Source of the DNA: Methylomonas sp. AM2-LC
GTDB taxonomy: Bacteria > Pseudomonadota > Gammaproteobacteria > Methylococcales > Methylomonadaceae
DNA: 64,000 nucleotides
NCBI RefSeq assembly: GCF_039904985.1
Contig: NZ_CP157005.1
Coordinates: forward strand, 4,173,501-4,237,500
Direction: 5' to 3'
This document shows, piece after piece, positions 26,835 to 62,338 of this stretch. The notes beneath the pieces were generated by a model. That model did not search any database. It was not told where the DNA came from and worked only from the letters and a program-made list of their open reading frames with translations. The translations under genes were made by a program, and so were the position numbers. The first letter of the stretch is position 1; each line of letters opens with the position of its first letter.

Positions 26835-26854
26835 TCTACTATTTCCGCTCTCGA

Positions 26855-39160: not shown

Positions 39161-39162
39161 CA

Positions 39163-42123: not shown

Positions 42124-42158
42124 AGCATACCAAGAAATAATCTCTAATAGAAAACATA

Positions 42159-42974: not shown

Positions 42975-42992
42975 ACTAAATCTCCGAATATC

Positions 42993-44732: not shown

Positions 44733-44738
44733 TTAGCC

Positions 44739-45905
44739 TTACCTTGAAATATTAAAACCAGACCAATTATAATTAAACGTAAGCATCAAAGCTTTTGATA
44801 CAGCTGAATAAGTATAATCCTGTTGACGATAAATAAATGTTAATCCAATATCAATATCACGTTGCATTTTCCAGTTAATAGTTGGCTGAAACGTTAAATA
44901 GGTACGGTTGGCATATATACTACCAGTAGTGGCAGCTTGACCTAAGGTATCTATCATAGAATATCCGCCATTAATATTAGCATTCCAGCGATCAGAAAAT
45001 TTATAGTTATAGCCAACAGTAAAAGCTGTTTGTTGTGTTAAAACTCCCAGACCACTTGGGTTAACTGACCTTGACAACATTACATATTCAGAAGATTGAA
45101 TATCTTCATGATTTAACCTTATATTAGCAACCCAACCCGAAGAGGTAGAACTTGAATTTGAATTTGCGACACTGCTTTGCTGAGTAAAGCGTTCGCCAAT
45201 AACGCTATTAATATCCCAATGTTGCGTCATTTTATATAACAATCCGACATTGGCACTATATGTTTCAGTTATACGCTGAAAATTACTTGTAAAATCACTA
45301 CGACTATACGAACCAGTCAGATTCTGAGTTAATCTATCGGTCCAAACCCGCTTCCAATCCAATGTCCCTGATTGAGTAGTATTATTGACTAAACCACTTC
45401 CACCTGTATAAGTAGAAGCCAAATAATTCGCCGACAACTTAATACTATCGTTAGCATTCAATAAATACGTAAAAGTTGGATTTAATGCTTCAGTAATACG
45501 TGTTGATGAAGTTAAAAAGTTACCGGTATCAGTTGAAGCAATACTATTAGTTAAAACTTTATTATAATCAGCATTTAAACCCCAAATTGTGCGAGCAGTT
45601 TTATAATCTGTATTTATACTATAATTTTGTGGCTCATTATCATAAAGACTATAAGTGTATTGCCTTACCCCATAACTACCAGAGCCAGCAATATTCCAAT
45701 CATCATCATTACGTTTAAAATTTACCTGTGGGGTTAAAAAAAATTCAAATGATCCTTGCGGATTTTTTGCCAACCTGAAGTTATCATCATATCCAAACAT
45801 CTGACTTAAACTACCATCAACTTTCCAGTCTGCTGCTTGCGCAGAAATACTAAAAAATATAAAAAGCAAAAAATAATGCCAGCAATATTTAAACAGATTA
45901 AACAT
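44739..45905 (-). CDS. Outer-membrane beta-barrel protein of the polysaccharide locus
   Basis: The ATG at 45905, with AGGG upstream, is preferred to a TTG at 45923 that would overlap the export gene. The 388-residue protein has a signal peptide ending at ISAQAADWK and then alternating beta strands rich in Tyr, Asn, Ser and Thr (GYDDNFRLAKNPQGSFEFFLTPQVNFKR at the start, a closing strand near FNYNWSGFNISR). It resembles the outer-membrane protein found in PEP-CTERM/XrtA polysaccharide loci. It probably takes part in polymer secretion. Confidence 0.78.
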   Translation of the reverse strand: MFNLFKYCWHYFLLFIFFSISAQAADWKVDGSLSQMFGYDDNFRLAKNPQGSFEFFLTPQVNFKRNDDDWNIAGSGSYGVRQYTYSLYDNEPQNYSINTDYKTARTIWGLNADYNKVLTNSIASTDTGNFLTSSTRITEALNPTFTYLLNANDSIKLSANYLASTYTGGSGLVNNTTQSGTLDWKRVWTDRLTQNLTGSYSRSDFTSNFQRITETYSANVGLLYKMTQHWDINSVIGERFTQQSSVANSNSSSTSSGWVANIRLNHEDIQSSEYVMLSRSVNPSGLGVLTQQTAFTVGYNYKFSDRWNANINGGYSMIDTLGQAATTGSIYANRTYLTFQPTINWKMQRDIDIGLTFIYRQQDYTYSAVSKALMLTFNYNWSGFNISR

Positions 45906-45912
45906 ATTTACC

Positions 45913-46470
45913 CTATGGAACAATTATAACATCGCCACTTTTTAATAGAATGTTACTATCTAGATTTTCACCTGTTTCAATTTCGCCAAATTGAAAGTTA
46001 ATTGGCTTAGTTGACTCACCGTCACGACGTAAAATTAATATACTATTTGCTTTTGCAAATGTCGTTAATCCACCGGCCAAACTTAGAGCTTGAGTGACAT
46101 TCAGAGGAGCAATCATGCTATAGTTTCCTGGCTTACCCACTTGCCCAATAACATAGACTGTATTTCCATCGACAGCTTTAACTGAAATAGTAACAGCCGG
46201 ATCTGATAAATATTTGGTTAATTTTTCCAAAACAATTTTCTGAACTTCATCAACTGACTTACCGGCTGCTATAAAACTCCCAACCAACGGAAAGCTAATA
46301 GAACCATCAGGTAAAACTCTCATTTCACCATGTAATGCCTCCTCATTCCAAACTGAAATAACCAGCATATCACCCGGATTTATTAGGTAATTACCAGTAT
46401 CAGAATATCCAATTTCGGTAAGCAACAGCAAAACCGCAGCAAACAGTCTTATAATAATTTTCTTTCTCAT
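45913..46470 (-). CDS. Wza-like polysaccharide export protein
   Basis: A 185-residue periplasmic protein with a signal peptide, a Poly_export domain (YLINPGDMLVISVWNEEALHGEMRVLPDGSISFPLVG) and a SLBB-like domain (VYVIGQVGKPGNYSMIAPLNVTQALSLAGGLTTFAKANSI). Unlike Wza, the signal region ends TEIGYSDTG with no lipobox Cys, and the C-terminal outer-membrane helix is absent. It may rely on the adjacent beta-barrel protein to cross the outer membrane. The 223 bp upstream (46471-46693) are very AT-rich and gene-free. Confidence 0.88.
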   Translation of the reverse strand: MRKKIIIRLFAAVLLLLTEIGYSDTGNYLINPGDMLVISVWNEEALHGEMRVLPDGSISFPLVGSFIAAGKSVDEVQKIVLEKLTKYLSDPAVTISVKAVDGNTVYVIGQVGKPGNYSMIAPLNVTQALSLAGGLTTFAKANSILILRRDGESTKPINFQFGEIETGENLDSNILLKSGDVIIVP

Positions 46471-46693
46471 AAATTACCTATTAATTACATACTCATGATC
46501 ACAAAAGCTCAAAAAATCTAAAGAAAATATAGCTATAATATTTAGATAATTCGAACTCAATATCTAAGGTATTGTATAAAAGTGTCGCGCTCTTATTTTT
46601 ATATACATATTTATTATAAAAACATAAACACAATTAACAATATATTTTTACAAAATATATCACATTACTAAACAAAACTTATGCCTACATTTT

Positions 46694-48199
46694 TTAACTT
46701 TTATTTAATTCATGTATTTTCTCTAAAATACGTAAAGCCTCTGCTTGATCCGGTTTATATTGTAGAGATTTGTTTATTAAAAGTTCAGCACGCTTAAGAT
46801 CATTATGCTCTATCATCTTATTTGCTACAGGTATCACTGCATCAAAATTAGCCGGATTAATCTCTACAGCTTTTCTGAATGCATCGTTTGCTAGTTCGGG
46901 CATGCTTTGCATCAAATAGGCGTTTGCCATTAAAACAAACTGTTCATCTTTATCTGGATACTCATTAGTTAAGATACGTAATATAGACAAGGCTTCATCA
47001 ATTTTATTATTAGCAATTTTAATTTTTGCCTGCATTAGTAGTGCATCATAATTACGTGCATCTATCGATAGCACATCATTTATTAACTTACTAGCTTCTG
47101 CTTCATCATGCTCCTGAAAAGCAATTGAGGCAAGCACTGCCTTCGCTTGCAAAACCTGTTTTGAATCTTTCTTAATATCAAACTTAGATAGCATCGTATT
47201 GTCAGTTCCTGTAGCATTATGCTCCGTAACAACACTATTTAGCACTTTTTTTGCTTCTGATATCTGCTGAGACTTAATATACAAATCAGCTAATTTCAAA
47301 TACATATCAACGTTTTCTGGATTTTGCTTAATAAACTCACGAACTATTGCTATGGTATTTTTTGGATCGTTTTTCTCAATAAAATCCACATAAGCTTTTT
47401 TAATATTAAAATCTTTAGGATTTTTATTCAAAATTGACTTATACATTGCATCAGCATCTACAAATCGATTTGTTTCGGTATAAATTTTAATAAGTGAATA
47501 CCGTAAATCCAGATTATCTGGCAAGCGTTTTATTAAATTTATATAATCTTCTTCAATTGCTTGAACATCATTTGTCGCTTGGTTAACTTGCAATTTAGCC
47601 ACATATAATGATATATCATTTGGTTTAGCATCTAATGCTTTATCGACTAATTCTAATGCTGACTTATACTCTTTTTCTTGAATAAGAATCGATGTCTTCA
47701 GTGTAATTGCATGTACATTCTTAGGTTCTAAATCCAAGGCATTTTCAACATAATGCATTGCCTCTTGATTTAACTTTTTCTTCAACAAAACTAAACCTTT
47801 AATGATTAACGCTTCCACATTATTTGGTTCAGAATGCAAAACTATATCTATTTCTTTATCCGCTTTCTCAATAAGATTTGCTGCTGCTTCAACACTAGCC
47901 AATTTTAAATGCGCTTGCAGATAGTTAGGGTTTAGATAGATAACACGCTCCAAATTATCAAACATTGGTTGCCATCTTTTATTTACTTCATCGATTAAAG
48001 CTATATAATAAAAAGCATCAACATGATGGGGATTCAATTGAGTTGCTAACGATAACTCCGCATTGGCTTTATCATAATTTTTTTCATTGAAAAAAACTTT
48101 TCCTTGCTGAAAATGCTCATCTGCAACTTCCGCAGGATTCTTGCAAGCTTGAATACTTAAGCATAAGCTTAGCAAGAAAAAAAACTTTATCACGCGCAT
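46694..48199 (-). CDS. TPR-repeat lipoprotein of the polysaccharide locus
   Basis: The start is placed at 48199 (MRVIKFFFLLSLCLSIQACKN), which gives a clean lipoprotein signal with the lipobox SIQAC. An upstream ATG at 48265 would add a second hydrophobic stretch. The 501-residue protein consists of about a dozen TPR motifs (for example GKVFFNEKNYDKANAELSLATQLNPHHVDAFYYIA). It resembles the PEP-CTERM system TPR lipoprotein family, thought to scaffold polysaccharide assembly. It has many AAA/AAT codons. No clear ribosome-binding site was found for either start. Confidence 0.82.
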   Translation of the reverse strand: MRVIKFFFLLSLCLSIQACKNPAEVADEHFQQGKVFFNEKNYDKANAELSLATQLNPHHVDAFYYIALIDEVNKRWQPMFDNLERVIYLNPNYLQAHLKLASVEAAANLIEKADKEIDIVLHSEPNNVEALIIKGLVLLKKKLNQEAMHYVENALDLEPKNVHAITLKTSILIQEKEYKSALELVDKALDAKPNDISLYVAKLQVNQATNDVQAIEEDYINLIKRLPDNLDLRYSLIKIYTETNRFVDADAMYKSILNKNPKDFNIKKAYVDFIEKNDPKNTIAIVREFIKQNPENVDMYLKLADLYIKSQQISEAKKVLNSVVTEHNATGTDNTMLSKFDIKKDSKQVLQAKAVLASIAFQEHDEAEASKLINDVLSIDARNYDALLMQAKIKIANNKIDEALSILRILTNEYPDKDEQFVLMANAYLMQSMPELANDAFRKAVEINPANFDAVIPVANKMIEHNDLKRAELLINKSLQYKPDQAEALRILEKIHELNKS

Positions 48200-48312
48200 T
48201 TTAAAAAAAAATAAAAAATAAATTTTAAGTAATTTAAATATTTCATAATATATATTTGCTAACATAAAACAAATATACTTATCAAAAAACTATAATTCAA
48301 CAGATAATTCAC

Positions 48313-49235
48313 CTAGTTCACTAATAAAAATTGTGCACAATTCCAGTCGATTATTTTCCGATTAGTTTCATTAATGTTTTTTATTATTAGCTTTCCACCG
48401 TTATTTATTGCATGCACTGACAACAACATACATAACCCTACAAATGCAGAGTCTATCACCGGCACATGTTGCAAATTTAGCTGGTAATTTTTGTATTGAT
48501 CAGAGATCTCGGCTAGCATTAATTTCAATGGTTCGAATGAATGGTTAACACAAGCACCTTTTATTACAATTTGAACATCAGAACCAACAGCCATTGATTC
48601 AACCTGTATTTCATTTATATTTTTCAAAAGCTTTTTATTGCACATAGTCCAAAGAGCATAGGGTATCACTTTTGATACCAACATTTTACATAAACTTAAT
48701 CCATCATAACCGTATCTTATCCATAGCGAAGGCTCTTGATAAATTCTCCACATCCATTCCATGCCAATAGTTTGCAAAAAATGAGGCGCACGCTTGATGT
48801 TACCCGCAACAAAATTAATCACAGCACCTAAATGGCTGATTATTGGAGCCTTTAACTTATCTCTGTTCGCTTCAATCCAGGCATGCCCTTTTTTAGCTCC
48901 CAATGCAACAACGATAAAATCGGCTTCACTGTCATTTATTTTCTGTATGATTCTCTCAGCACTCATTTCTTCTATTGATCCAAAACCCGGCCCAAAAAAT
49001 CCACTTGCTTTTAAACCTTGTCCATTTTCATTTTGTCTTTGACAGGCTTGTTCTGCGATACCTTCAGCTCCACCAAAAAAGAATACTTTAAGGTGCGTAG
49101 GAGCGTTTGACTCATTTAATTTTTCATACAAATCAGCGCCAGCTACTCGCTCAACCACGGGTAAGCTCAACATTTTGGCAATCCAAATAATGGGCATACC
49201 ATCTGCAATACTTAAATCGGATTTTATGATTGATT
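48313..49235 (-). pseudogene. WecG/TagA/CpsF-type glycosyltransferase with STAS-like domain, 3' fragment split by IS
   Basis: This is the C-terminal part of a glycosyltransferase disrupted by the insertion sequence at 49236. Read from the insertion point, the sequence continues IIKSDLSIADGMPIIWIAKMLSLPVVERVAGADLYEKL, the WecG/TagA motif. Then come FFFGGAEGIAEQA, VVALGAKKGHAWI and APHFLQTIGMEWMWRIYQEP. The last 95 residues form a STAS-like domain (VPVIDSAFVGLCMLLSVHAINNGGKLIIKN). The internal ATG at 49197 opens a 294-codon frame but would miss the N-terminal substrate-binding part. Rejoined with the 5' fragment it gives a 365-residue protein. Confidence 0.9.
49228..49235. repeat. Left target-site duplication of the IS66-type element
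   Basis: GATTGATT directly precedes the left terminal repeat and is identical to 50975-50982. An 8-bp duplication is typical of the IS66 family. Confidence 0.95.
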
Positions 49236-49463
49236 GTAACTATTCAGCGTAAATAATTAAAAAAAAGCTTGACAAGGTTTTTGGTCGAAAAATAAAAAAT
49301 TCAGTGAACTGCCAGCTTGTAGTGGAATGACGTATTTAGCTACGCATTCGGCAACTACAATTCCTCAATTGCAACATTAAATAGAAGGGTAGTGACTCTT
49401 GGTCGTTCGTGGCCTACATCGCAACCTCGAAGGCAAAAATCGACTTTTAAAACTGGCCTTATA

Positions 49464-49493
49464 ATACCGCTAACAGTAACGGTTTAGCGGTAT
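49464..49493 (+). promoter_or_regulatory. Hairpin just before the transposase start
   Basis: Ten-base arms (ATACCGCTAA and TTAGCGGTAT) enclose a 10-base loop and end 6 bp before the TTG start codon, covering the place of a ribosome-binding site. Such a structure could damp transposase translation from read-through RNA. Confidence 0.5.
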
Positions 49494-49499
49494 ATTAGT

Positions 49500-50930
49500 T
49501 TGACTGTCGATAATATCAACATTGAAGACACCATCAAAAAAGTTCAGCAACTGATCGCTGATGAAGAGCATATGTCATCAGCTTTGCGTGCGACCTTAGA
49601 AGTCATGATCATGCTGATTCAAATAATGGCTAATCGTTTAAGCCTGACTAGCCGAAATAGCAGCAAACCGCCTTCTACGGATCGTTTTAAAGATCAAGAC
49701 AAAGTCAGTGGCGATGACGAGAACAAAGGCAAAAATAGAAAGCGCGGTGGGCAGTTCGGTCGGATAGGTACAACTTTAAAAAAAGTGGACGATCCCGATG
49801 AAATTGAAATTCTGGAATTAGATCGGGCGACTTTACCACCAGGGAACTATCAGGAAGTTGGTTTTGAGATCCGCCAAGTATTTGATATTGAGATTCAGCG
49901 CCTTGTGACCGAATACCGCGCTCAAGTTCTGGAAGATCAATTTGGCAAACGTTTTACAGCCTCTTTTCCGGTTGAAGTCACTAAAGCGGTGCAATACGGG
50001 AATGGCGTCAAAGCACAGGCCGTGTATTTGTCTCAATATCAACTCATTCCCTACCAACGTGTTCAAGAGCAATTTCAGGATCAATTCCAACTACCGATCA
50101 GTGTCGGCTCAATCTTTGAATTTAACCAGCAAGCTTATCATTTGCTCGAACAATTTGAATTGAAACTCATCACGAAAATACTCGCCTCGTCCCTATTGCA
50201 TTCCGATGAGACCGGGATCAACATCAATGGGAAAAATCATTGGCTGCACTGTATTTCGAACCAGCAATGGACGCTCTTTTACGCCCACGCCAAACGCGGC
50301 ATGGAAGCAATAACCGCTATGAATGTTTTAACCCGTTTTACAGGTATTCTCTGCCACGATCACTGGAAGCCCTATTTCCAGTTGAACTGCCTGCATGCCT
50401 TATGTAACGCTCACCATTTGCGCGAGCTGACCTATGCCGAAGAACAAGAGAACCAAGCATGGGCTAAGGATATGCGAGAGTTGCTTGTTTCTATCAATGA
50501 GGCTGTTAAGGCCCAGGGCGGTGTTTTATCCGATTCTATAGCGGCAGGCTATACCGATCAATATCGGGCAATTCTTAAAGAGGCTGAGCAGGAATGTCCT
50601 CCCCCGCTCCCAGAGAGAAAGGAAGGACAACGGGGACGACTTAAACGCAGTAAATCGCGAAACTTATTGGAGCGGTTAATCAACTTTGAGCAGCAAACCT
50701 TAAGGTTTATGACTGATGCCAAGGTACCCTTTACCAATAACCAAGGAGAGAACGACATCAGAATGACCAAGGTTCACCAAAAGATTTCAGGCTGTTTTCG
50801 TAGTCAGGAAGGTGCTGATATTTTTTGCCGTGTTCGAAGTTATTTATCAACATGCCGGAAAAACAACATATCAGCCAGCGAAGCGTTGACACTGCTCTTT
50901 AATGGCAAATTGCCGGATTTTATACGGTGA
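49500..50930 (+). CDS. IS66-family transposase (TnpC/ISBst12 type)
   Basis: The 476-residue protein starts at a TTG at 49500; an in-frame stop at 49485-49487 rules out a longer frame. The N-terminal leucine-rich region is followed by NRLSLTSRNSSKPPSTD, a hallmark of IS66 TnpC, and the DDE-type core includes LLHSDETGINI, LCHDHWKPYFQ and NNQGENDIRMTKV. The C-terminal part has SGCFRSQEGADIFCRVRSYLSTCRKN. The frame is intact, so the enzyme may be active. It mobilises the surrounding element. Confidence 0.95.
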   Translation: MTVDNINIEDTIKKVQQLIADEEHMSSALRATLEVMIMLIQIMANRLSLTSRNSSKPPSTDRFKDQDKVSGDDENKGKNRKRGGQFGRIGTTLKKVDDPDEIEILELDRATLPPGNYQEVGFEIRQVFDIEIQRLVTEYRAQVLEDQFGKRFTASFPVEVTKAVQYGNGVKAQAVYLSQYQLIPYQRVQEQFQDQFQLPISVGSIFEFNQQAYHLLEQFELKLITKILASSLLHSDETGININGKNHWLHCISNQQWTLFYAHAKRGMEAITAMNVLTRFTGILCHDHWKPYFQLNCLHALCNAHHLRELTYAEEQENQAWAKDMRELLVSINEAVKAQGGVLSDSIAAGYTDQYRAILKEAEQECPPPLPERKEGQRGRLKRSKSRNLLERLINFEQQTLRFMTDAKVPFTNNQGENDIRMTKVHQKISGCFRSQEGADIFCRVRSYLSTCRKNNISASEALTLLFNGKLPDFIR

Positions 50931-50974
50931 CGACCAAAATTCGCTGAGCGTGATAAATTACGCTGAATAGTTAC

Positions 50975-50982
50975 GATTGATT
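50975..50982. repeat. Right target-site duplication of the IS66-type element
   Basis: GATTGATT directly follows the right terminal repeat and matches 49228-49235 exactly. Confidence 0.95.
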
Positions 50983-51157
50983 TACGGAACTCGTTATCCT
51001 TGCGACAAGCAACAATAAAATTCAGATTGGGGGTTGCCACAATACAAGATTTTTTATGTTTTGCGGCATCTCGGACATAATTCAAAGCATCTGACATAGA
51101 CATTGCATCAAACGGCAATCCTAAAATACAATGAACCTCACGCATAAAATTTGTCAT
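50975..51157 (-). pseudogene. WecG/TagA/CpsF-type glycosyltransferase, 5' fragment split by IS
   Basis: The 5' part encodes MTNFMREVHCILGLPFDAMSMSDALNYVRDAAKHKKSCIVATPNLNFIVACRKDNEFRKSI, including the TPN segment of the WecG/TagA fold, and is then interrupted. Translation would continue into the element and stop at 50840. Deleting 49228-50974 joins the codons as R-K-S-I-I-K-S-D-L-S-I-A-D-G-M-P in frame, so the ancestral gene ran 51157 to 48313 less the insert. The ATG at 51145 is an alternative start. Confidence 0.9.
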
Positions 51158-51784: not shown

Positions 51785-52975
51785 TCATGTTTTATCTCTA
51801 CTGGACCGTATCCACTCAACCTGACGGTTTACTAAAAATCCAATATAGAGCGGTATTTTTCCAATTACGTAAATTGGAATGTATACCAAGTCGCTCAGTG
51901 ACAATAATTTTCGACCTTCAGACCACCAAGCTATGAACATGGCGATAATAAGCATTGACAAACCTATAAGAGAAAGATACCAAGGTTTTTCTATACTTAA
52001 AGCCAGCCATTCTATCCCATTCAACAAAAGTAATGCAAAATAGCTAGACATCAACAGTGCTAGCGGAGGAACGCTTAAATCTAATGCCATAAAAACCAAT
52101 CCCATCTGCTTCCGCTTTAAACCCAATGCCATTAATTTAGGAAACTCCCGCATTATCATCCCAATATGACCGTGCTCCCACCGCTTTCGTTGTGATTGCA
52201 TACCGTGGCTACTTACCGGAAAAGAACTACATACTATTGCATCTGGGCACAGTATCGGCGCATATCCAGCAATTGCAAAATCAATACCCATTTTTAAATC
52301 CTCTACAATTTCGGCATTTGCTAAATTCACCTTATGAATAATATCCCAAGGTATTGCTATCCCTGAACCTTTTAAATGGCAAGGCATTCCTAATTGATGC
52401 GCACCCATCGCTCTGAGGCGATTTTTAACAGCCCAAGCAAATTCCGCAACTCGCGTTTTTAAATTTGCATTTTCGTTTCCATGCATTAAATAAATGGCTT
52501 GTACCGGTTTTGATAATTGCTGACCTGCCATCACCAAATGTTCATAACTACCCTCATTAAGTAAACAATCCGCATCTATTAGTATTACCGTATTTGGAGG
52601 AGACAATTCGAGATATTGAATACCGAAATCAAGCGCAAATCCCTTACCACGCTTATTTAAATCAATTCGCTCAATTAATTCTGCCCCCAATTCTCGTGCA
52701 ATTTGCCCGGTATTATCGGTACAGTTATCTGCAATGACGATTAACCGATCTCCGGGTTTCATTTGTGATTTGATTGACTCAAGCGTATTTGCTATCACAG
52801 CCGATTCGTTATGTGCAGGTACCAGTACCGCTACAGAACCTCTACAAACCTGCTCTTGATTCTTACGAGATTGAGGAACCACGCCCAGTAAAATTTCAAC
52901 TAACAACACCACTACAGGTATCTGTATCAATAGCGTTATCCCTAAGGATAGATATTCAATAAACCATAAAGCCAT
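51785..52975 (-). CDS. Glycosyltransferase family 2, processive-type, membrane-bound
   Basis: The 396-residue protein has an N-terminal transmembrane segment and about three C-terminal ones. The GT-A domain shows AVLVPAHNESAVIANTLESIKSQ, ILIDADCLLN (DxD) and EIVEDLKMGIDFA (catalytic ED). QSQRKRWEHGHIGMI (QxxRW) is found in processive or polyprenyl-linked GT2 enzymes. It probably transfers a sugar on the cytoplasmic face during repeat-unit synthesis. Neither donor nor acceptor can be named. Confidence 0.85.
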   Translation of the reverse strand: MALWFIEYLSLGITLLIQIPVVVLLVEILLGVVPQSRKNQEQVCRGSVAVLVPAHNESAVIANTLESIKSQMKPGDRLIVIADNCTDNTGQIARELGAELIERIDLNKRGKGFALDFGIQYLELSPPNTVILIDADCLLNEGSYEHLVMAGQQLSKPVQAIYLMHGNENANLKTRVAEFAWAVKNRLRAMGAHQLGMPCHLKGSGIAIPWDIIHKVNLANAEIVEDLKMGIDFAIAGYAPILCPDAIVCSSFPVSSHGMQSQRKRWEHGHIGMIMREFPKLMALGLKRKQMGLVFMALDLSVPPLALLMSSYFALLLLNGIEWLALSIEKPWYLSLIGLSMLIIAMFIAWWSEGRKLLSLSDLVYIPIYVIGKIPLYIGFLVNRQVEWIRSSRDKT

Positions 52976-53147: not shown

Positions 53148-54797
53148 TTACTCCACACTTATTTTGTTCAGAAAATCTGCAAGCCGAAGAGAGAGTGCAA
53201 CTATTGTAAGCGTCGGATTTGCATGACTTGATGTAGTAAATACAGAAGAGCTACTTATAAACAAATTGTCCACACCGTGTACACAACAATTTTTATTAAC
53301 CACACTATTTTGCTCAGAGATTCCCATTCGCGTTGTACCGAGATGATGTCCCCCTACGGGCAAAGCACTGGTCATTCTTTCTTTTAATTCACCCTCATCA
53401 AACTCTAACCTTGCACTATTTGTCTTAACGAGTAGCCGTTGCAACTGTTTAAAAGATTCTATTCCTGAGTCTATATCTATATTTGTGAGTTTCCAATTTA
53501 CATTTACTCGCTTCATTCCTAACTGATCAGTTACCGATTGCAAATCAATTTTATTACTTGCGTCTGGAATCTGTTCGCTATTAAACTCCAAAGGATAACT
53601 ACCATTCCTATTTGAAACCAAGGTATAAGGTAATTTGCGTTTCGCTAACTTCATCTTGAACATCCAATCGTAAGCAAAATTGACTACCGAACCAAAATCT
53701 GTCACCACATTTTGTAGATGTTTTAAACGATTATTCTGTGCTAACGTCAGATTTATTCCATGATTCAATATAGACTGATGCTCCTTAGCCAATAAAGATT
53801 TGGCCAAATAAATACTAGAAAGGACACCACTCCCATGCCGATCATCTGCATACGCAGGAAAGTGTAAGCGAAATACAGAATTTAACAATCTATGTTGCGA
53901 TTGAAATTCTTCAGAAAAATGTAATTTTCGCCGCGCATAAATTCCATCTGTGGTTTTTTGGAACTCAAAAAATGGCTTTTGATTCGCAAAGCGTACTGAT
54001 CCAAAGATCAAGTCAAAATGACAAGCATAATACTTACCTAAACTTTGCTCGAATCTGCTCCAACTTGGTGTACTCTGCTGAGTGATTAAAAGCAAACGCG
54101 TGGTCTCAATACCACCTCCACAAATAATAAAATGCGCAGCATTTATAGTTAATGCGTACTTACCATCACTAACTTCTATTGAAGTTATCCGACTACCATT
54201 CTCAGCGACATTCAGCTTTGTGCAGCGCGTTCTTAGCAAGACCTGTATTAAACTGGAAGTAGATAACTCCAAGCGATATTTAGATGAAAAATCGGTTGGC
54301 AAACTATAACGCTCTATTTTTTCGACTAAATCAGGCTGCAATTTTTGCAGTCCATCGAACATAGAAATTTCTTTAGGCGCTAGAGCCCGCAGAGAAAAGT
54401 CGGCTAAGCCAGCATCACAATAGCTTAGCGCTTCAGGGTAATAACTAAAAAGCTCTTGATAATTGATAGGCCAACTACTATTAGGCACATGTTGACGATA
54501 ATCGAAATCCAATGCATCCATAGGAACACACCGCCCCCCCCACAAATGTGTGGTGCCTCCAAATCTTTGGTGTCGATATTCGTTAACTGGTGGATGAGGA
54601 GCATTAGCATGACCAGTGTAGAACTCGTCTAACTCACGCTCTTCCTTCCAATCACCTGCTTCTAACAAAAGTACCTTTCGGCCTTTACGAATAAGGGCAA
54701 CCGCCAAACTGATACCGGCTGCACCACTTCCAATAATACAAAAGGGATAATTTTGCAAACTTTCAGGCTTACACTGATTTAAATTAGTTATCATCAA
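53148..54797 (-). CDS. GMC-family FAD oxidoreductase
   Basis: The protein has 549 residues. The N-terminal FAD-binding fold has CIIGSGAAGISLAVALIRKGRKVLLLEAGD, and FGGTTHLWGGRCVPMDALDF follows as in GMC oxidoreductases. The C-terminal catalytic segment is PVGGHHLGTTRMG, and the last part (CCVHGVDNLFISSSSVFTTSSHANPTLTIVALSLRLADFL) contains His and Asn of the active site. The family oxidises alcohol groups on sugars or lipids. Its place among glycosyltransferases suggests it oxidises a sugar or linker hydroxyl in the polymer pathway. No signal peptide is visible. Confidence 0.87.
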   Translation of the reverse strand: MMITNLNQCKPESLQNYPFCIIGSGAAGISLAVALIRKGRKVLLLEAGDWKEERELDEFYTGHANAPHPPVNEYRHQRFGGTTHLWGGRCVPMDALDFDYRQHVPNSSWPINYQELFSYYPEALSYCDAGLADFSLRALAPKEISMFDGLQKLQPDLVEKIERYSLPTDFSSKYRLELSTSSLIQVLLRTRCTKLNVAENGSRITSIEVSDGKYALTINAAHFIICGGGIETTRLLLITQQSTPSWSRFEQSLGKYYACHFDLIFGSVRFANQKPFFEFQKTTDGIYARRKLHFSEEFQSQHRLLNSVFRLHFPAYADDRHGSGVLSSIYLAKSLLAKEHQSILNHGINLTLAQNNRLKHLQNVVTDFGSVVNFAYDWMFKMKLAKRKLPYTLVSNRNGSYPLEFNSEQIPDASNKIDLQSVTDQLGMKRVNVNWKLTNIDIDSGIESFKQLQRLLVKTNSARLEFDEGELKERMTSALPVGGHHLGTTRMGISEQNSVVNKNCCVHGVDNLFISSSSVFTTSSHANPTLTIVALSLRLADFLNKISVE

Positions 54798-54951: not shown

Positions 54952-56163
54952 CTATTGATAAACCGCACTTTTTAATAAACATTCTAATTTATCCAGCTCA
55001 TTAGAAAGCTTATGAAATTCCTGTACTCTGCCAGCCCCCTCTAGTCCCATTTGCTGTAAAACTGAGGGTCTAGTCGTTATGACTTCGATCAATGCATGCT
55101 CTAGACACTCTACAGACCCAGGAGGCACAAGCCATCCATTAACACCATTAACAACTAATTCGGGAATCCCAGCAATCTGGGTTGCGACAACAGGACGACC
55201 TAATGCAAAAGCTTCCATAATAACGACAGGAAGACCTTCTGCAAAACTTGGCAAAACTAACGCCCTACTCTGTTTAATTTCATTGCGTACATCAGAACTG
55301 CTTTTTGCACCCAAAATCTGAATGACACTGCCAAGATTTTTCTGTTTTATCAATGCTTCGATTTCGGAACGCATCGGTCCATCACCAATTAAAATCAGTT
55401 CTAAACTAAATTCTGACTCAACAAGCTTAGTGACAGCCTGAATTAGTATCTGCATCCCTTTTTCAGCGCAAAGTCTACCAACGAAAACTAAGCGAGGTGC
55501 CTCAGAAATAGGGATAGTGCTTGGCGATTCAAAGTCTTTACCCACCGCGCAACGTATTATATGTAATTTGTGCCAGTACTTGGTATCAGTAAATAACATA
55601 CATTGACTTCTACAAAAATTTGTTATAGTCGCTGTAAATGCCGAACGCGCTACCTTCTCACCCAATACCCATTGTTTAGGATGAAAAAAAATGCCAGGAC
55701 CATGTACCGTCATACTAAAAGGTACATTAGATAAAAGTGATGCCAACATTGCTACGTTGGCCGAATTTTCTGCGATGTGATTATGCAAAATATCAATGCC
55801 TAGCTTGCCCATTCGGCGCGTAAGATAGCTTGCCTCCAAAAGATAAGCACATTGGTTAAATAGTCCTTTAATACCGGGTATATGTGTCTTCCAGGCCAAT
55901 AAAATTGCCCTACACATACGTAAAGGAGAGCATATAAAAACTAACAACGTACTGTATATTAACAATATTAGGGGTTTCTCTAAAATATAATCAGTGGTCG
56001 ATTGCTCACTAGCAACATCAATGCTCAACTCCCCTTGCCCACTTTCTCTGCGTATAGAAAAGGTATAGACCTCATGTCCTCTGTCTCGAAGCCCTAAAAC
56101 TTCATTACGAATAAATGTATCACTAGAACGACCATAAACACTTGTAATATAAGCGATTTTCAT
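54952..56163 (-). CDS. Glycosyltransferase family 4
   Basis: The start is placed at 56163 (MKIAYITSVYGRSS); an ATG two codons upstream is also possible. The 403-residue GT-B enzyme has an N-terminal acceptor domain and the GT4 donor domain (LVFVGRLCAEKGMQILIQAV, LILIGDGPMRSEIEALI, VLPSFAEGLPVVIMEAFALGRPVVATQIAGIPELV with the E-x7-E motif). It is probably a retaining transferase adding one sugar to the repeat unit. Sugar specificity is unknown. Confidence 0.87.
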   Translation of the reverse strand: MKIAYITSVYGRSSDTFIRNEVLGLRDRGHEVYTFSIRRESGQGELSIDVASEQSTTDYILEKPLILLIYSTLLVFICSPLRMCRAILLAWKTHIPGIKGLFNQCAYLLEASYLTRRMGKLGIDILHNHIAENSANVAMLASLLSNVPFSMTVHGPGIFFHPKQWVLGEKVARSAFTATITNFCRSQCMLFTDTKYWHKLHIIRCAVGKDFESPSTIPISEAPRLVFVGRLCAEKGMQILIQAVTKLVESEFSLELILIGDGPMRSEIEALIKQKNLGSVIQILGAKSSSDVRNEIKQSRALVLPSFAEGLPVVIMEAFALGRPVVATQIAGIPELVVNGVNGWLVPPGSVECLEHALIEVITTRPSVLQQMGLEGAGRVQEFHKLSNELDKLECLLKSAVYQ

Positions 56164-56280
56164 AAACATCTATGTAAAAGTAGAAGTGAATAGTAAAGAT
56201 TACGCGTGATGCCAGCCGCTTATAGCTACCTTAGCCACACAAAAATGCAATTTTTTCAGGCAAAATCCAAAATAAATCAC

Positions 56281-57228
56281 TTATAGCAAACGGTTAGCTT
56301 TCCAATGTAAAAGTTGCTTTGCCTTTAAATTGGAAAATTTAAAGGGCTTCAATCTTAATGCAAAAGCATGAGGTAAAAATATTTCTGGCAAACAACCATC
56401 AAAACGCAATAACTTTGCCATTGGATATAAAATGTGCACAATCAGCACCTGCATAATCCACCAAGATACTCGAATACCGCCAGGTTTTATTAATCCAACC
56501 TGTCGTAATAGCGCCTGATACTGAGTTTGATTGGGTAAATGATCATCAACAAGATGTATAACTTGTTGATTACAGGAATCTAACGTAACCGATGCCAAGA
56601 TTGCATCAATCACAGAACCTAATTCAACAAGCGGCACTTCGCCTAAATGATCAATTAGTATTTGATACCTACTTTTTATAATTCCTGCATAAGCAGTATT
56701 GATCATATTTTGATTATAGATAAGGCCTGGTCTAAGAATGATGCAATTTGCACCCTGTTCTGAAAAAGCCCTAAAAACCGCTTCTTGTGAGGATTTAAAT
56801 GCTGAATAGCGGCTCATTTTGTCAAATTGAGTCGCTACTGATAAATTTTCATCAATACTGGTCATCGGTTTTAAAGCTTGATAATCCAATACTGAAAGAC
56901 TGCTTACACCAACTAATTTAGTAATACCCGCCAGTTGCATTGCAGTGATTAATTTTTCGGTACCAATTAGTAATTGCTCTATAGACTGGTTTTTGGCAGG
57001 ATGCAGATCAGCCGCAAGATGAACAACACAATCAATTTTGAAAGTGCTCAATGGTGGAATTTCATCCACAGACAAATCACATTTCATTAATTCTAAATTC
57101 TCATGACACGCCAAACTCGAGAGAGCATTTCCCCTGAACATAGCGACAACATCATATCCGCAAGCTAAGGCCGCATATACAAGCTGTTTTCCGACAAACC
57201 CAGTTGCACCTGTAATCAAAAGTTTCAT
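56281..57228 (-). CDS. NAD-dependent epimerase/dehydratase family protein
   Basis: An extended SDR of 315 residues with the Rossmann motif ITGATGFVGKQLVYAAL, the Ser and YxxxK catalytic set (VGVSSLSVLDY, SRYSAFKSSQEAVFRAF), and NCIILRPGLIYNQ. It lacks the exact signatures of RfbB, GalE or Gmd, so the sugar substrate is unclear. It likely makes or modifies a nucleotide sugar for the polysaccharide. Confidence 0.82.
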   Translation of the reverse strand: MKLLITGATGFVGKQLVYAALACGYDVVAMFRGNALSSLACHENLELMKCDLSVDEIPPLSTFKIDCVVHLAADLHPAKNQSIEQLLIGTEKLITAMQLAGITKLVGVSSLSVLDYQALKPMTSIDENLSVATQFDKMSRYSAFKSSQEAVFRAFSEQGANCIILRPGLIYNQNMINTAYAGIIKSRYQILIDHLGEVPLVELGSVIDAILASVTLDSCNQQVIHLVDDHLPNQTQYQALLRQVGLIKPGGIRVSWWIMQVLIVHILYPMAKLLRFDGCLPEIFLPHAFALRLKPFKFSNLKAKQLLHWKANRLL

Positions 57229-57310: not shown

Positions 57311-58321
57311 TCATTTATATTCGATTAGTATTTCTTTTGTACCTTTCAATTGACTGATAATAAATTTAACCTGTCCAACCAACTCAGGAAATTTGCAGAT
57401 CACCATAAAGAATGCATATAACCATGCATCAGAATTCGTTGGCGAGAATCTTAGGGCCAAACGTAGAATTTGCAAAAGATAAACGCCAAAAGCAAGTAAT
57501 ACCCAAGGTGATACCAACACAGATCCAGATAGAATAACGATAGGAATAACACCTCCCCACAACCAAATTCTGGAACTTTCTAGTAAAGAATGTCTTTCTT
57601 GGGTAAAACCGTGAAGATAACAACCCGCAGCAAAAGCATAACCGCCCCTAATGGAGCGCTTCCACCACTGACTAAACTTAAACATTGCTGCATCATGCAA
57701 AGTCATTTCTTCAGATAACCGCCAAATCTGCCATCCTGCTCCACGTAAACGTACACAAAGCTCCGGCTCTTCACCTGCAATTAATCCGTCTCGATATCCT
57801 GTTACTGCAAGTAAAGCATCAACACGCATCATCGCATCACCGCCACAGGCTTTAACTATTCCAGTCGGCCCATCCCACTCCCAATCACATAATTGATTGT
57901 AAATAGTTTTTTGGGGGAAACGTTCACGTCGGCGCCCACAGACAACAGCACAATCAGAGTGGTGTATTAAAAAATCTAAGGCATTATTTAACCATGTCGC
58001 GATCACTTCACAATCACCATCCACAAACTGTACATACTGTATATTCGCATCAAGTGACAACAAATGTTTAAAACCAATATTACGCGCTCGTGCCGCTGTA
58101 AACGGAATTGACAAATCCAGCGCAACGGTAGTAACACCCATACGTTTTGCCAGTAGTAAAGAATCGTCTGTTGAACCCGAATCAACATAGACAATTTTCT
58201 CTACTTTTCCCTGCAAAGAATCTAGACAACGCTGCAAGCGTTCCCCTTCATTACGCCCAATGACAACTATACCTAAAGATTCTAAATATTTATTAGAATT
58301 AAGCGACCTGTTTTCATCCAT
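57311..58321 (-). CDS. Glycosyltransferase family 2 with C-terminal membrane segments
   Basis: The protein has 336 residues. The GT-A domain reads IVVIGRNEGERLQRCLDSLQ, IVYVDSGSTDDSL and FVDGDCEVI (DxD-like), followed by GGDAMMRVDALLAVTGYRDGLIAGEEPELCVRLRGAGW with the catalytic acidic pair. Two hydrophobic segments follow (WGGVIPIVILSGSVLVSPWVLLAFGVYLL). This resembles GT2 enzymes of EpsH-type loci. It probably adds a sugar to a membrane-linked acceptor. It lies 47 bp downstream of another GT2 gene. Confidence 0.85.
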   Translation of the reverse strand: MDENRSLNSNKYLESLGIVVIGRNEGERLQRCLDSLQGKVEKIVYVDSGSTDDSLLLAKRMGVTTVALDLSIPFTAARARNIGFKHLLSLDANIQYVQFVDGDCEVIATWLNNALDFLIHHSDCAVVCGRRRERFPQKTIYNQLCDWEWDGPTGIVKACGGDAMMRVDALLAVTGYRDGLIAGEEPELCVRLRGAGWQIWRLSEEMTLHDAAMFKFSQWWKRSIRGGYAFAAGCYLHGFTQERHSLLESSRIWLWGGVIPIVILSGSVLVSPWVLLAFGVYLLQILRLALRFSPTNSDAWLYAFFMVICKFPELVGQVKFIISQLKGTKEILIEYK

Positions 58322-58368: not shown

Positions 58369-59352
58369 TCAAAAAACTTTTAAACAACTAAAAAGCAAAC
58401 TATTTGCAATAAAGTCTCTTAATAAGTAAGGAGGATCCTGATTCGATTTACCTTGTATCAACCGTCTTAAGGTCCATAAAAGATAAGCTAAAATCCAAAT
58501 CAAATCGGCTATTAATGCATATATCTTGCCATGATTTTTAACAAAATAACGCTGCCTCGACTCAAACCAATATTTTGGGATACGTTTAGGTTTTACATTT
58601 CTAATAGTGAGTTTGGTACTTTGCCCGGCAATATGCATAACGCGACTTTCTGGCACATACCAAATACTCCAGCCCGCTTTTTTAGCCTGAAAGCAAAAAT
58701 CAGTTTCCTCATAGTAAAGAAAATATTGCTCATCCATAAGACCAATACTATCAAAAACTTCACGACGGATTATCATACTGGCACCGGCCATCCAATCCAC
58801 TTGGGCATTGTGTTTATCCATTTCTCTGGCAACAACCCATTTAGCAAGTAAACGGGTCACTATACCTAGCCTAAGGCCGTTGTCTAACTCGCTCAATAGC
58901 GATGGAAAACGAAAAGCGATAGGCCAATCACTACCATCCTGATTTTCAAAACTGCCTCCCGCTATACCGCATTCTGGGTGAGACTGCATAAACTCATATA
59001 ATGTTTGCATTGCTCCTGGCTTGACTTCTGTATCAGGATTTAACAACCACAGATATGCAGGAGGAAAGGATTCGGCTAACGCTGCACGTATGGCATGATT
59101 ATTTCCATAAGCATATCCACCGTTTTGGGGTGATACCATCAAACTCACCCAACTGTTCCATTGCTGTTCTTCAATTGCTGTCCGCAAGTCTGACACAGAA
59201 CTATCTGGAGATTGATTATCCACAACTACCACATGAGCACCTGAAAAAGTCATTATTTGGTTCTGCAAAGATTTCAAACAATTGATAGTCAGCTGACTAG
59301 TGCAATAATTAACAATGACCACCAATAAGGTAATTGGCTGCTCAAAATGCAT
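58369..59352 (-). CDS. Glycosyltransferase family 2, rhamnosyltransferase-like
   Basis: The 327-residue protein has the WbbL/RfbF-type pattern VVIVNYCTSQLTINCLKSL, VVVVDNQSPDSS, NGGYAYGNNHAIRAA, LLNPDTEV and MAGASMIIRREVFDSIGLMDEQYFLYYEETDFCFQAKKAGW. Such enzymes often move rhamnose, which fits the rfbBDAC genes in the same locus, but specificity is not proven by sequence. A C-terminal hydrophobic segment (ALIADLIWILAYLLWTLRRLI) may anchor it to the membrane. Confidence 0.87.
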   Translation of the reverse strand: MHFEQPITLLVVIVNYCTSQLTINCLKSLQNQIMTFSGAHVVVVDNQSPDSSVSDLRTAIEEQQWNSWVSLMVSPQNGGYAYGNNHAIRAALAESFPPAYLWLLNPDTEVKPGAMQTLYEFMQSHPECGIAGGSFENQDGSDWPIAFRFPSLLSELDNGLRLGIVTRLLAKWVVAREMDKHNAQVDWMAGASMIIRREVFDSIGLMDEQYFLYYEETDFCFQAKKAGWSIWYVPESRVMHIAGQSTKLTIRNVKPKRIPKYWFESRQRYFVKNHGKIYALIADLIWILAYLLWTLRRLIQGKSNQDPPYLLRDFIANSLLFSCLKVF

Positions 59353-59392: not shown

Positions 59393-62338
59393 TTATATTT
59401 TGACATATTCGCGAATACAATCTGCCATCTGTTTTACATTCGGCTCTTGCAACATACTGGAATGTCCTCCTGGAATATCATAGACTTTAACACCTTCGGT
59501 TGTTCGTTCTCCCCAGCCAAATAATGGATCAACATAAATAGTTACATAGGGTGTATCTGCATCATGGCCTTCAGTCGCTCTAAATAACACTAACTCATTA
59601 TCTATACCCGTTTCAGGTTTATAGTTTGTTTCTGCATACAGATAAACATAGCGTACCTCTATATCGGACAGAAACTTTGGCAAACTCCATTGTCTGCGTT
59701 GATACTCACCGAGTAAATACACTTTTAAACTAGCTTGCCATTTATTTAGTCTAGAGCTTATTTCATAACGAATTAAATTAACTATTTTTTTGCTTATCAC
59801 TTTACAAATAGTGATCAAACGCAGAACTAGATGATTGTTTTGTTCATTGTCCAAAACCGAACTGATACGAGTTAATCTGGCATTGGCGATGCGACCCTGC
59901 CGTTTTGTGGCTAAAACATCAGCCGCATCTATCAAACCGACAAAGTCTACTTTATGCCCATCCGCCCTTAATTGCCTGGCAACTTCATAAGCAATGACAC
60001 CACCAGCGCACATACCACCTAACAGATAAGGACCTTGAGCCTGTATCTCATAAATTTGTCGAATATAATAAGCTGCCATGTCTTCCATGCAGGTATCCAA
60101 CATTGGATAATTAGCTTGTCCGCGTGGTTTTATGCCATAAACCTGAAAATCTGCCTCTAGATGTAATGCCAGATTACGATATAACAGTACTTCGCCATCA
60201 CCGTCATGAATGAAATAAATAATTCTAGATGCTGTGCTTTTATTCAAAAGTATAGGCTGCTTTATAACATTTTGGCCTACATCAAGCTGAATACGTGTGG
60301 CCAACCCCTGAATTGTAGGGTATTCAAGAACCGAAGTAAGCGGTAATGTCACACTAAATGCTTGCTCCACTTCTACGATAAGCTGAACAGCTAATAGCGA
60401 ACTGCCACCCAGCTCAAAATAATCATCTTGGGTACTAATGCTATTAATATTCAAAATGCTTTGCCATATTGCGACTAACCGCTTTTCAACTTCTGTTTTA
60501 GGCAATACTAAGTCTTCTGTATTATTACGGCAGCGTTTAGCTGTTAGCTTTTCTACCCAAGCCAATATTTTTTCAGCGCTCTGTAAATGGGTGGTTGTCT
60601 GAGCCAAACTCAAATCAATCACTGTTTTACTATTAGTAATTTGCCCAGTCACTGACGCATCTGTTACCGGTTTTGACGTTTCCACACTGGCATCAGTACG
60701 CACTATCGCATTCATCTGAGCCGCACTATCAGTACTAATATCAAATACTAAAGATCCATCGTTTTGCTCTACTTTCTGTGTGGCTATATTTTCTAAAAAG
60801 TGCAGAATAGGAATGTTTTTAGGAGTGGGTATATAAGGTATGCGTAAAACGGGCAAATTATGTTGGAAAGCAATACTAGCCATATATTTCAAAATATGGT
60901 TTTCTACGCCGCGACCAAGCACTCTGCAACTCAACATAAACGACTGAATACAAAGCGCTTGGCTTTCTATTCCAAAAATTAGCACTCCAACTAAACCATA
61001 ATCACCATACCGGTCTTTTACCTCAACCATCCGCACTTGTAGATGGGCTTCGCCAAGACGTTGAATATCAATTTCTGAACGCCTGATGGTAGTATTATTA
61101 AACTGATTAGTCCGCTGCGTCAGTTGTGCCACACGCGCTATTTGCTCTTGCCCCGGCTCAGCAATATTGACTTCAAGCTCAAGTCCATCCAAAAAATCCT
61201 GATAATTACTAAAGGTTTTTTCCAGGTTTTTCCGCGCAACATCCTGTTGATAAAGACTAGTACGCATTTTATCTTCTGAAGTGGCTTTAATGCGATCAAA
61301 CACCCAAATATGTTTTAAAAAATCAGGAATATGCTGTTTAGGCAGATTCAGGCTTAAAACTTCAGGGCAATTAACCCGAACTTCTTCACATTCCATTGGA
61401 TTATCATCCACAAAGATAAAGGCATCCAAGCCCAAGTTCAGTTCTAAAGCCAATGAACGTATATTTTCAGATTTTGGCTGCCAATTAACACGCCATGAAA
61501 CGATGTCCTCGCGCCTTATGCGCATGTCTTTATGCTGATCTAATACCTCTAGCACATCCTCTTCTATATTTTTACTGCATAAGCACAACAGCATACCAGC
61601 TTGCTTTTGAGCTAACATAAAGGTTTGCAAAAATTGCCAATCTGCTGAAACATCAATACCTTGCAGACCCTCTTCGCCAATCACTCCTCCCCATAATGTA
61701 TTATCACAATCCAACACGATAACTTTATAAGGCGCAGATTTAATCGAATAAATTTTACGAGATAAAACGGTACCCAAGGCCGCGTATCCAACAGGTGTAT
61801 AAGGTATATGTCCTAATTCATCTCTTGTGGCATCATAATAACCAGCTAAAGGATAATTTTCCCAATCCGCTGTGCTTATAAAATAACAATTAGACAGTGA
61901 TTTAAACTCTTCTTCGATGTTGTTTTGCAAGCTATTAAACAAATCGCTGTGTGTCGATAACTGATTAGTATCGGGCGAATTTGGACAGATACAGACTATT
62001 AACGGCGATTTCAATGCTAGCACCGCAGAATGAATGGCGCTACACAACTCATTGTACAAGCTTAATAATTTATTAGCATCAGCCTGTTTTTCAGCTCGTA
62101 ACCAGTCTTCAAAACGTAATAGCAGAATATTAATTCCACCCTGGTTTTTGTGCATCAGGCTCAACGGATCCAGTAGTTGCTGGAAAATTTGATTATATGG
62201 CGCAAACTCAATTCCCCCATATAAATGCAAAGTACTCATCCAAGCTGATAAAATACTCTCAACGGGTTCTGCAGTAAAACTGGATACTATTACGATTGGA
62301 GTTGGAGTGCTTTCCTGAGAAGTTTTAGTGCGTATCAT
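59393..62338 (-). CDS. FkbH-type HAD phosphatase - carrier - thioesterase fusion protein
   Basis: The protein has 981 residues. The FkbH/HAD-IIIC region (about 1-530) has motif I VIVLDCDNTLWGGV (Asp210, Asp212) and VDDNP at 310-314, and makes glyceryl-carrier thioesters in known family members. An acyl/peptidyl carrier domain occupies about 612-685, with the pantetheine site FELGGSSLL (Ser647). A type I thioesterase fold follows (about 700-981), where the nucleophile elbow reads LLGGMCAGG with Cys777 instead of Ser, with Asp804 and His959 (PGGHSS) completing a triad. A linker at about 540-610 is low in conservation. It is the first gene of the minus-strand polysaccharide locus. A role in adding glycerate to sugars is inference. 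Confidence 0.9.
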   Translation of the reverse strand: MIRTKTSQESTPTPIVIVSSFTAEPVESILSAWMSTLHLYGGIEFAPYNQIFQQLLDPLSLMHKNQGGINILLLRFEDWLRAEKQADANKLLSLYNELCSAIHSAVLALKSPLIVCICPNSPDTNQLSTHSDLFNSLQNNIEEEFKSLSNCYFISTADWENYPLAGYYDATRDELGHIPYTPVGYAALGTVLSRKIYSIKSAPYKVIVLDCDNTLWGGVIGEEGLQGIDVSADWQFLQTFMLAQKQAGMLLCLCSKNIEEDVLEVLDQHKDMRIRREDIVSWRVNWQPKSENIRSLALELNLGLDAFIFVDDNPMECEEVRVNCPEVLSLNLPKQHIPDFLKHIWVFDRIKATSEDKMRTSLYQQDVARKNLEKTFSNYQDFLDGLELEVNIAEPGQEQIARVAQLTQRTNQFNNTTIRRSEIDIQRLGEAHLQVRMVEVKDRYGDYGLVGVLIFGIESQALCIQSFMLSCRVLGRGVENHILKYMASIAFQHNLPVLRIPYIPTPKNIPILHFLENIATQKVEQNDGSLVFDISTDSAAQMNAIVRTDASVETSKPVTDASVTGQITNSKTVIDLSLAQTTTHLQSAEKILAWVEKLTAKRCRNNTEDLVLPKTEVEKRLVAIWQSILNINSISTQDDYFELGGSSLLAVQLIVEVEQAFSVTLPLTSVLEYPTIQGLATRIQLDVGQNVIKQPILLNKSTASRIIYFIHDGDGEVLLYRNLALHLEADFQVYGIKPRGQANYPMLDTCMEDMAAYYIRQIYEIQAQGPYLLGGMCAGGVIAYEVARQLRADGHKVDFVGLIDAADVLATKRQGRIANARLTRISSVLDNEQNNHLVLRLITICKVISKKIVNLIRYEISSRLNKWQASLKVYLLGEYQRRQWSLPKFLSDIEVRYVYLYAETNYKPETGIDNELVLFRATEGHDADTPYVTIYVDPLFGWGERTTEGVKVYDIPGGHSSMLQEPNVKQMADCIREYVKI

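Follow-up and report, generated by a model that had tools for sequence, protein, structure and literature searches.

What is a protein made of natural-product assembly-line domains doing in a locus for an exopolysaccharide (EPS)? The question is raised by a 64,000-nucleotide stretch of the genome of Methylomonas sp. AM2-LC (contig NZ_CP157005.1, positions 4,173,501 to 4,237,500; hereafter the window), in which a single gene encodes an FkbH domain, a carrier domain and a thioesterase (TE) with a cysteine nucleophile, and adjoins the genes for two glycosyltransferases, GT2-A and GT2-B. Judging from sequence comparisons, we consider it moderately probable that the product loads itself with glyceryl groups and transfers them to an exopolysaccharide. 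The gene context supports a decoration role.

Architecture and conservation of the FkbH-carrier-TE protein

The sequence-only reading of this gene had described a 981-residue protein joining FkbH, a carrier (Ser647) and a TE with a GMCAG elbow (Cys777), Asp804 and His959, a description that proved exact by coordinates, profiles and conservation. The features are as follows, with conservation counts for Ser647 among 120 homologues and for the TE residues among 129 proteins.

59393..62338, minus strand: entire protein of 981 aa, FkbH-carrier-Cys thioesterase (position, strand and length all confirmed)
61739..62296, minus strand: N-terminal alpha/beta domain, residues ~15-200 (from the predicted full-length model)
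60779..61729, minus strand: FkbH/HAD-IIIC domain, residues 204-520 (profile TIGR01686, 290.1 bits, cut-off 146.65; DCDNT motif at 210-214)
60290..60481, minus strand: carrier domain, residues 620-683 (PP-binding, 59.6 bits)
60398..60400, minus strand: Ser647 codon, phosphopantetheine site (120/120)
59417..60223, minus strand: thioesterase domain, residues 706-974 (Thioesterase, 83.6 bits)
60008..60010, minus strand: Cys777 codon, nucleophile of the GMCAG elbow (129/129)
59927..59929, minus strand: Asp804 codon, position-I triad Asp (129/129)
59555..59557, minus strand: Asp928 codon, possible position-II Asp (125/129)
59462..59464, minus strand: His959 codon, triad His (128/129)

The architecture and the conservation of its residues are confirmed and are not a product of chance. 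We used the best 120 of 5710 proteins, the window's own included, from a search that started from the Cys-TE. All covered at least 97% of the query, with identities of 43-62% for those other than the window's own, and their named sources are Methylomonas sp., several cyanobacteria, Aquisphaera and another member of the Isosphaeraceae. Cys777 and Asp804, like Ser647, were present in all 120, His959 in 119 and the full GMCAG elbow in 118; in the sole homologue without His959 (P0109) the elbow is unusual too, reading GFCAG. The FkbH motif residues D210, D212, T214 and K256 were found in 120/120 and C254 in 118/120 (the HAD DxDxT motif and the CSKN stretch), and we take the cysteine of the conserved CSKN stretch, Cys254, to be important. 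Adding nine proteins from the carrier-TE search described below, all nine over the FkbH cut-off, gave the set of 129. A chance fusion or annotation error is ruled out by the 119 further full-length proteins among the best 120, and the view of Cys777 as a strain-specific oddity by its presence in 129/129.

The model of the entire protein, based on 60 aligned sequences (mean pLDDT 82.5, pTM 0.57), shows first the N-terminal alpha/beta domain, which we presume to be SGNH-like. The HAD domain follows, then a domain of mixed type (residues ~388-540), the carrier, in which Ser647 opens a helix, and lastly the TE. In a model of the TE alone (46 sequences, pLDDT 92.7, pTM 0.89), Cys777 (residue 91 of that model) lies between a strand and a helix, which is the topology of a nucleophile elbow, while Asp804 is placed directly past a strand and His959 past a late strand. 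The traits of a type I thioesterase (PF00975) are present, namely an alpha/beta-hydrolase fold after a carrier, the nucleophile elbow, the Asp and the His. The identity of the triad Asp is not certain because a second acid, Asp928, is present besides Asp804.

When the TE model was compared with known structures, the top match by Foldseek was AB3403 (PDB 4zxh), a four-domain non-ribosomal peptide synthetase (NRPS) of Acinetobacter baumannii. It was also the best by Z score (26.5, with 222 residues aligned and an rmsd of 4.9; human FAS-TE was tied at 26.3) and the top match by sequence too. The structures of ObiF1 and SulM were not among the rows of this comparison, an absence that excludes nothing. 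The genome has one match to a phosphopantetheinyl transferase of the PF01648 family.

Enzymes beside GT2-A in other loci

Identities of 46% in Aquisphaera and 56% in Gloeothece for GT2-A, and of 48% and 53% (the latter over a 127-aa piece) for GT2-B, point to the two as conserved EPS glycosyltransferases. On pOJF2_1 of Aquisphaera giovannonii, an FkbH-carrier-TE gene is located in a locus that also has exosortase, tyrosine kinase, WecB/TagA and rhamnose genes. Both of the FkbH-carrier-TE loci seen in context (2/2) are thus EPS loci, which supports the earlier claim of a self-contained loader-carrier-TE protein in a polysaccharide locus. Plasmids of Paludisphaera and Planctomyces sp. SH-PL62 carry the GT2-A/GT2-B pair without an FkbH-carrier-TE gene, with GT2-B on the opposite strand and similar neighbours. 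In Gloeothece verrucosa a protein with condensation (C) and adenylation (A) domains, a carrier and a Cys-TE (elbow GLCAG) is encoded directly ahead of GT2-A, and a short piece of GT2-B is found upstream.

To quantify these associations we collected 33 GT2-A loci: the window, 12 plasmid loci (the plasmid search covered the best 30 of 236 records with a GT2-A match), 5 relatives, 9 loci of a phylum sample and 6 of a class sample. Carrier-TE genes were scored within 8 kb of GT2-A, and sulfotransferases, hexapeptide proteins and type-3 acyltransferases within 4 kb. The counts are raw, from a sample that is small and partly chosen, since four of the 12 plasmid loci (L024, L025, L051, L054) were picked already knowing of their carrier-TE. 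A carrier-TE was found in 15 loci, a sulfo- or acyltransferase only in 7 (L047, L052, L053, L074, L077, L093, L095) and none of these in 11. The carrier-TE lies at most 75 bp from the GT2-A match in 14/15 cases; a single family within the phylum sample supplies 8 of the 15, which are not independent of each other, and none of the 6 class-sample loci has a carrier-TE. For L074, L077 and L095 the slot genes were confirmed by Pfam as Acyl_transf_3, Sulfotransfer_1 and Hexapep. GT2-A is hence often beside modifying enzymes, which extends the earlier argument from the neighbouring glycosyltransferases; a role for GT2-A as an obligatory partner of the carrier-TE is ruled out by the 18/33 loci that have none.

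Three further features of these loci were observed. A trio of a type I polyketide synthase (PKS) with a terminal Ser-TE, GT2-A and a luciferase-like monooxygenase/A-domain protein recurs in L050, L051, L054 and L082-L089, polysaccharide-type loci of Rhodobacterales plasmids and one further family; it may serve a polyketide-amino acid decoration of an EPS. In L073 (8761-9363) a hexapeptide-type protein is encoded between GT2-A and a C-A-carrier-TE protein, giving two possible decoration enzymes in one slot. In the Aquisphaera locus L024 (18907-19907), GT2-A is annotated as two overlapping open reading frames (ORFs), perhaps through a frameshift.

Exchange of loaders on the carrier-TE unit

A search with the carrier-TE part of the Gloeothece relative, which has a Cys-TE, showed that, among the best 120 of 2073 proteins, this unit follows not only FkbH but also C-A, A, C, KR-A and PKS loaders. 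The loader classes were taken from precomputed Pfam lists, and the four proteins that were checked comprised one AMP-binding protein with PF23024, two PKS and one AMP-binding-KR protein. We take PF23024 to indicate a fatty-acyl ligase. The elbow cysteine was present in 129/129 proteins with FkbH, 50/53 with C-A, 21/24 with A, 17/18 with C, 6/6 with KR-A and 2/2 with PKS loaders, in total 225/232. Each of the seven proteins without it (P0134, P0192, P0193, P0209, P0212, P0225, P0226) has more than one TE-like stretch.

We inferred a quick, unrooted tree from 127 carrier-TE rows; its three outgroup rows are long-branched, and these branches meet. It omits the seven non-Cys proteins, P0129, P0191, P0203, P0219 and eight proteins with <200 TE columns, and it samples 40 of the 129 FkbH proteins (3 fixed and 37 random). 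A set of 45 rows with an SH-aLRT support of 96 contains the 40 FkbH rows together with 4 C-A rows and 1 A row. The FkbH label needs three changes on the tree, and three are likewise forced by the starred branches alone. Because of these label changes, this sequence-based tree shows that loaders have been exchanged on the TE lineage.

Among the proteins of the search, P0129, P0134, P0192, P0209 and P0212 are NRPS-like with tandem TE-like stretches, some of whose elbows have neither Cys nor Ser. P0199 joins KS, AT, carrier, sulfotransferase and Cys-TE, i.e. sulfation and acyl loading in a single chain.

Gene neighbourhood in the window

The FkbH gene is followed by a series of genes on the same strand.

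58369..59352, minus strand: GT2-A glycosyltransferase, 40 bp downstream of the FkbH gene, marker of the decoration slot
57311..58321, minus strand: GT2-B glycosyltransferase (family match)
56281..57228, minus strand: NAD-dependent epimerase-family protein (family match)
54952..56169, minus strand: GT4 glycosyltransferase, EpsE-like (below the NCBIfam cut-off)
53148..54797, minus strand: GMC oxidoreductase (family match)
51785..52975, minus strand: GT2, EpsU-like (below the NCBIfam cut-off)
48313..51157, minus strand: glycosyltransferase gene of the WecG/TagA family, broken into two pieces by an element of the IS66 family
49236..50974: the IS66-family element, bounded by inverted ends, with its transposase on the plus strand at 49500-50930 (DDE_Tnp_IS66, 154 bits)
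41293..48265, minus strand: TPR protein, ORF without family match, SLBB export protein, Wzz-type protein and two ATPases
37725..41123, minus strand: four dTDP-rhamnose-type genes, RmlB, D, A and C by family

The inverted ends of the IS66-family element at 49236 and 50974 match at 16/16 positions, and the unsplit WecG/TagA protein of a relative aligns to both sides of the element. The FkbH gene itself is intact. A Wzx-type flippase (PF13440) is encoded beyond the limits of the window, at a distance of about 17 kb from where the FkbH gene starts; an adjoining membrane-protein-like gene without a Pfam match is a candidate Wzy by position. Elsewhere, positions 26001-28000 of the window differ from the rest in their strong AT skew (-0.258); the gene there matches TonB_2.

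Distribution

No full-length match to the protein was found in 36 other genomes of the genus, and only its own genome matched among 301 of the order (own included) at E 1e-120. Across the phylum, 19/398 genomes (own included) matched at E 1e-100, and only its own did so over the whole model. These searches rule out a genus-wide gene. A scan of genome contigs gave two distant FkbH loci, and each of two scans of viral contigs yielded three distant loci. The GT2-A of Gloeothece is 56% alike, while genomes of the same order reach no more than 47%, and together with the distribution this would fit a putative cassette that moved between distant bacteria.

Proposed function and alternative explanations

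Building on the domains, conserved residues, predicted fold, gene context and loader exchange established above, we infer the glycerate substrate, the sugar acceptor, the product and the order of events. The FkbH part would take glycerate from 1,3-bisphosphoglycerate and load it onto the arm at Ser647 of the in-cis carrier, as an FkbH-T module does in the vioprolide line and is proposed to do for corramycin (excerpts of PMC8949500 and PMC10099666). The carrier would pass the glyceryl group to Cys777, and the resulting thioester acyl-enzyme would donate it to a sugar of the EPS repeat unit, at a hydroxyl (or amino) group. The most likely acceptor is the lipid-linked form of this unit, which GT2-A and GT2-B would assemble in the cytoplasm. 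Cysteine in place of serine may keep the acyl-enzyme reactive toward the sugar hydroxyl. The enzyme would in this way do the job of the sulfotransferases or acyltransferases in sister loci.

Several observations weigh against this proposal. The 129 FkbH-carrier-TE proteins are represented in context by two loci only, the window and Aquisphaera. Their gene orders differ: the window gene precedes GT2-A and therefore lies outside the GT2-A/GT2-B pair, while in Aquisphaera it stands between the two. The 11/33 GT2-A loci without any scanned enzyme are L048, L049, L075, L076, L081, L090, L091, L092, L094, L099 and L100, among which L081 and L100 have a hexapeptide match 6-7 kb away and L092 and L094 are short contigs. 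Serine is carried by 12/15 carrier-TEs near GT2-A and cysteine by 3 (the window, P0105 of Aquisphaera and Gloeothece), and therefore the cysteine marks the TE lineage, not the slot. Homologues with the same neighbours and Ser at 777 without consequence were named earlier as refuting evidence, and this was partly found, but the 12 have PKS or C-A loaders rather than FkbH (11 PKS from Rhodobacterales plasmids and one phylum-sample family, plus the C-A-carrier-TE of G463). Finally, since the IS66-family element splits the WecG/TagA gene, the EPS pathway may be off in this isolate and the polymer perhaps not made.

The same machine might instead give glyceryl to a diffusible small molecule, lipid or peptide, the EPS location being secondary. 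Many NRPS- and PKS-type proteins likewise contain carrier-TE units from this lineage, and there is no known acceptor. On the other hand, the two FkbH-carrier-TE genes seen in context both lie in EPS loci of tight gene order, the Gloeothece C-A-carrier-Cys-TE relative also adjoins GT2-A, and no other ORF in the window exceeds 612 aa, so that the window holds no second NRPS or PKS protein; we think this explanation unlikely. A related variant, in which the carrier-TE decorates the EPS with an acyl group other than glycerate, draws on the other loaders of the TE lineage and on position 217, which is Lys in 82/120 homologues and Gly in the window protein and 3 others, so that the loader may vary. 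It appears distinctly unlikely given that the HAD motif and Cys254 are conserved and that the FkbH domains in the available literature passages are all assigned to the glycerate donor.

Thioesterases of the PF00975 family commonly hydrolyse, and the protein could merely free glycerate or edit. To make free glycerate by such a route would be wasteful, the cysteine is present in 129/129 proteins, and exchange of Cys for Ser in ObiF1 (C1146S) switched the outcome to hydrolysed product only, an effect ascribed to the greater reactivity of the thioester to the hydroxyl (passages of PMC6668435); plain hydrolysis thus seems highly unlikely. Formation of a lactone or a glycerate oligomer has the slightest chance of the four. 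Asp928 stands 31 residues ahead of His959, a spacing like that in the TEs of ObiF1 (1254/1284) and SulM (2926/2956), which are described as forming rings and have their Asp in position II. This leaves some chance for the beta-lactone formation mentioned in the sequence-only reading. It became less supported, however, since position-I Asp804 is the more strictly conserved (129/129 versus 125/129), the top match AB3403 uses position I in the published excerpt, and a lactone would have no evident role in an EPS locus. The earlier interpretation as a whole is partly supported.

Beyond the glyceryl transferase proposed here, we tentatively envisage, as a possibility held with less confidence, a general class in which a carrier-TE with swappable loaders esterifies or amidates EPS repeat units. 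FkbH would supply glycerate, A or C-A loaders amino acids or acylated amino acids, and fatty-acyl ligases or PKS longer chains. The class would range over cyanobacteria, planctomycetes, roseobacter relatives and the order to which the window belongs, which probably consists of methanotrophs, the slot elsewhere holding sulfotransferases or acyltransferases. The enzymes usually regarded as responsible for decorating glycans are membrane O-acetyltransferases, hexapeptide transferases or sulfotransferases with soluble donors. If our proposal is true, natural-product assembly-line chemistry also decorates slime polymers, and the acyl group could be predicted from the loader domain. Proteins that are now labelled 'HAD-IIIC family phosphatase' or 'non-ribosomal peptide synthetase' would then be predicted to modify polymers, and new acyl groups could be put on biopolymers by engineers.

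Comparison with known systems

AB3403 differs from the window protein in having an NRPS loader, presumably C-A, rather than FkbH. Its TE has a Cys nucleophile and a position-I Asp, as in the window, and the excerpted part of the SulM paper terms it uncharacterised. The TEs of ObiF1 and SulM likewise have a Cys nucleophile in a type I TE, but in the passages available they use a position-II Asp (after beta7) and form rings, whereas the FkbH family has the position-I Asp804 throughout and Asp928 as a position-II candidate.

On the side of polymer chemistry, the synechan xss locus of Synechocystis has homologous glycosyltransferases (39% for GT2-A, 41% for GT4 and 53% for GT2-B) and a sulfotransferase adjoining GT2-A; it differs in having sulfate rather than the acyl group proposed for the window. 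The TE of Pks13 is reported to transfer to a sugar, but it differs in having a Ser elbow, which aligns with the Cys elbow, in its long mycolic acyl chain and in its PKS loader. An excerpt of PMC2625445 considers hydrolysis by its own TE or an external one. In the xss locus, XssA is the sulfotransferase and XssB a glycosyltransferase (excerpts of PMC8205485), and by gene order relative to that report the GT2-A homologue was equated with XssB.

The FkbH-T modules of vioprolide and corramycin resemble the window protein in that FkbH replaces the A domain and puts glycerate onto an in-cis carrier, as far as the excerpts cited above describe them. They are modules of long lines making free natural products, whereas in the window FkbH-carrier-TE is the whole protein and is located in an EPS locus. 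No earlier description of FkbH or assembly-line enzymes in polysaccharide loci was found in the part of the matching open-access literature covered, at title and abstract level. FkbH-T modules and Cys-TEs are already known; what appears to be new is the FkbH-carrier-TE as a whole protein in an EPS locus.

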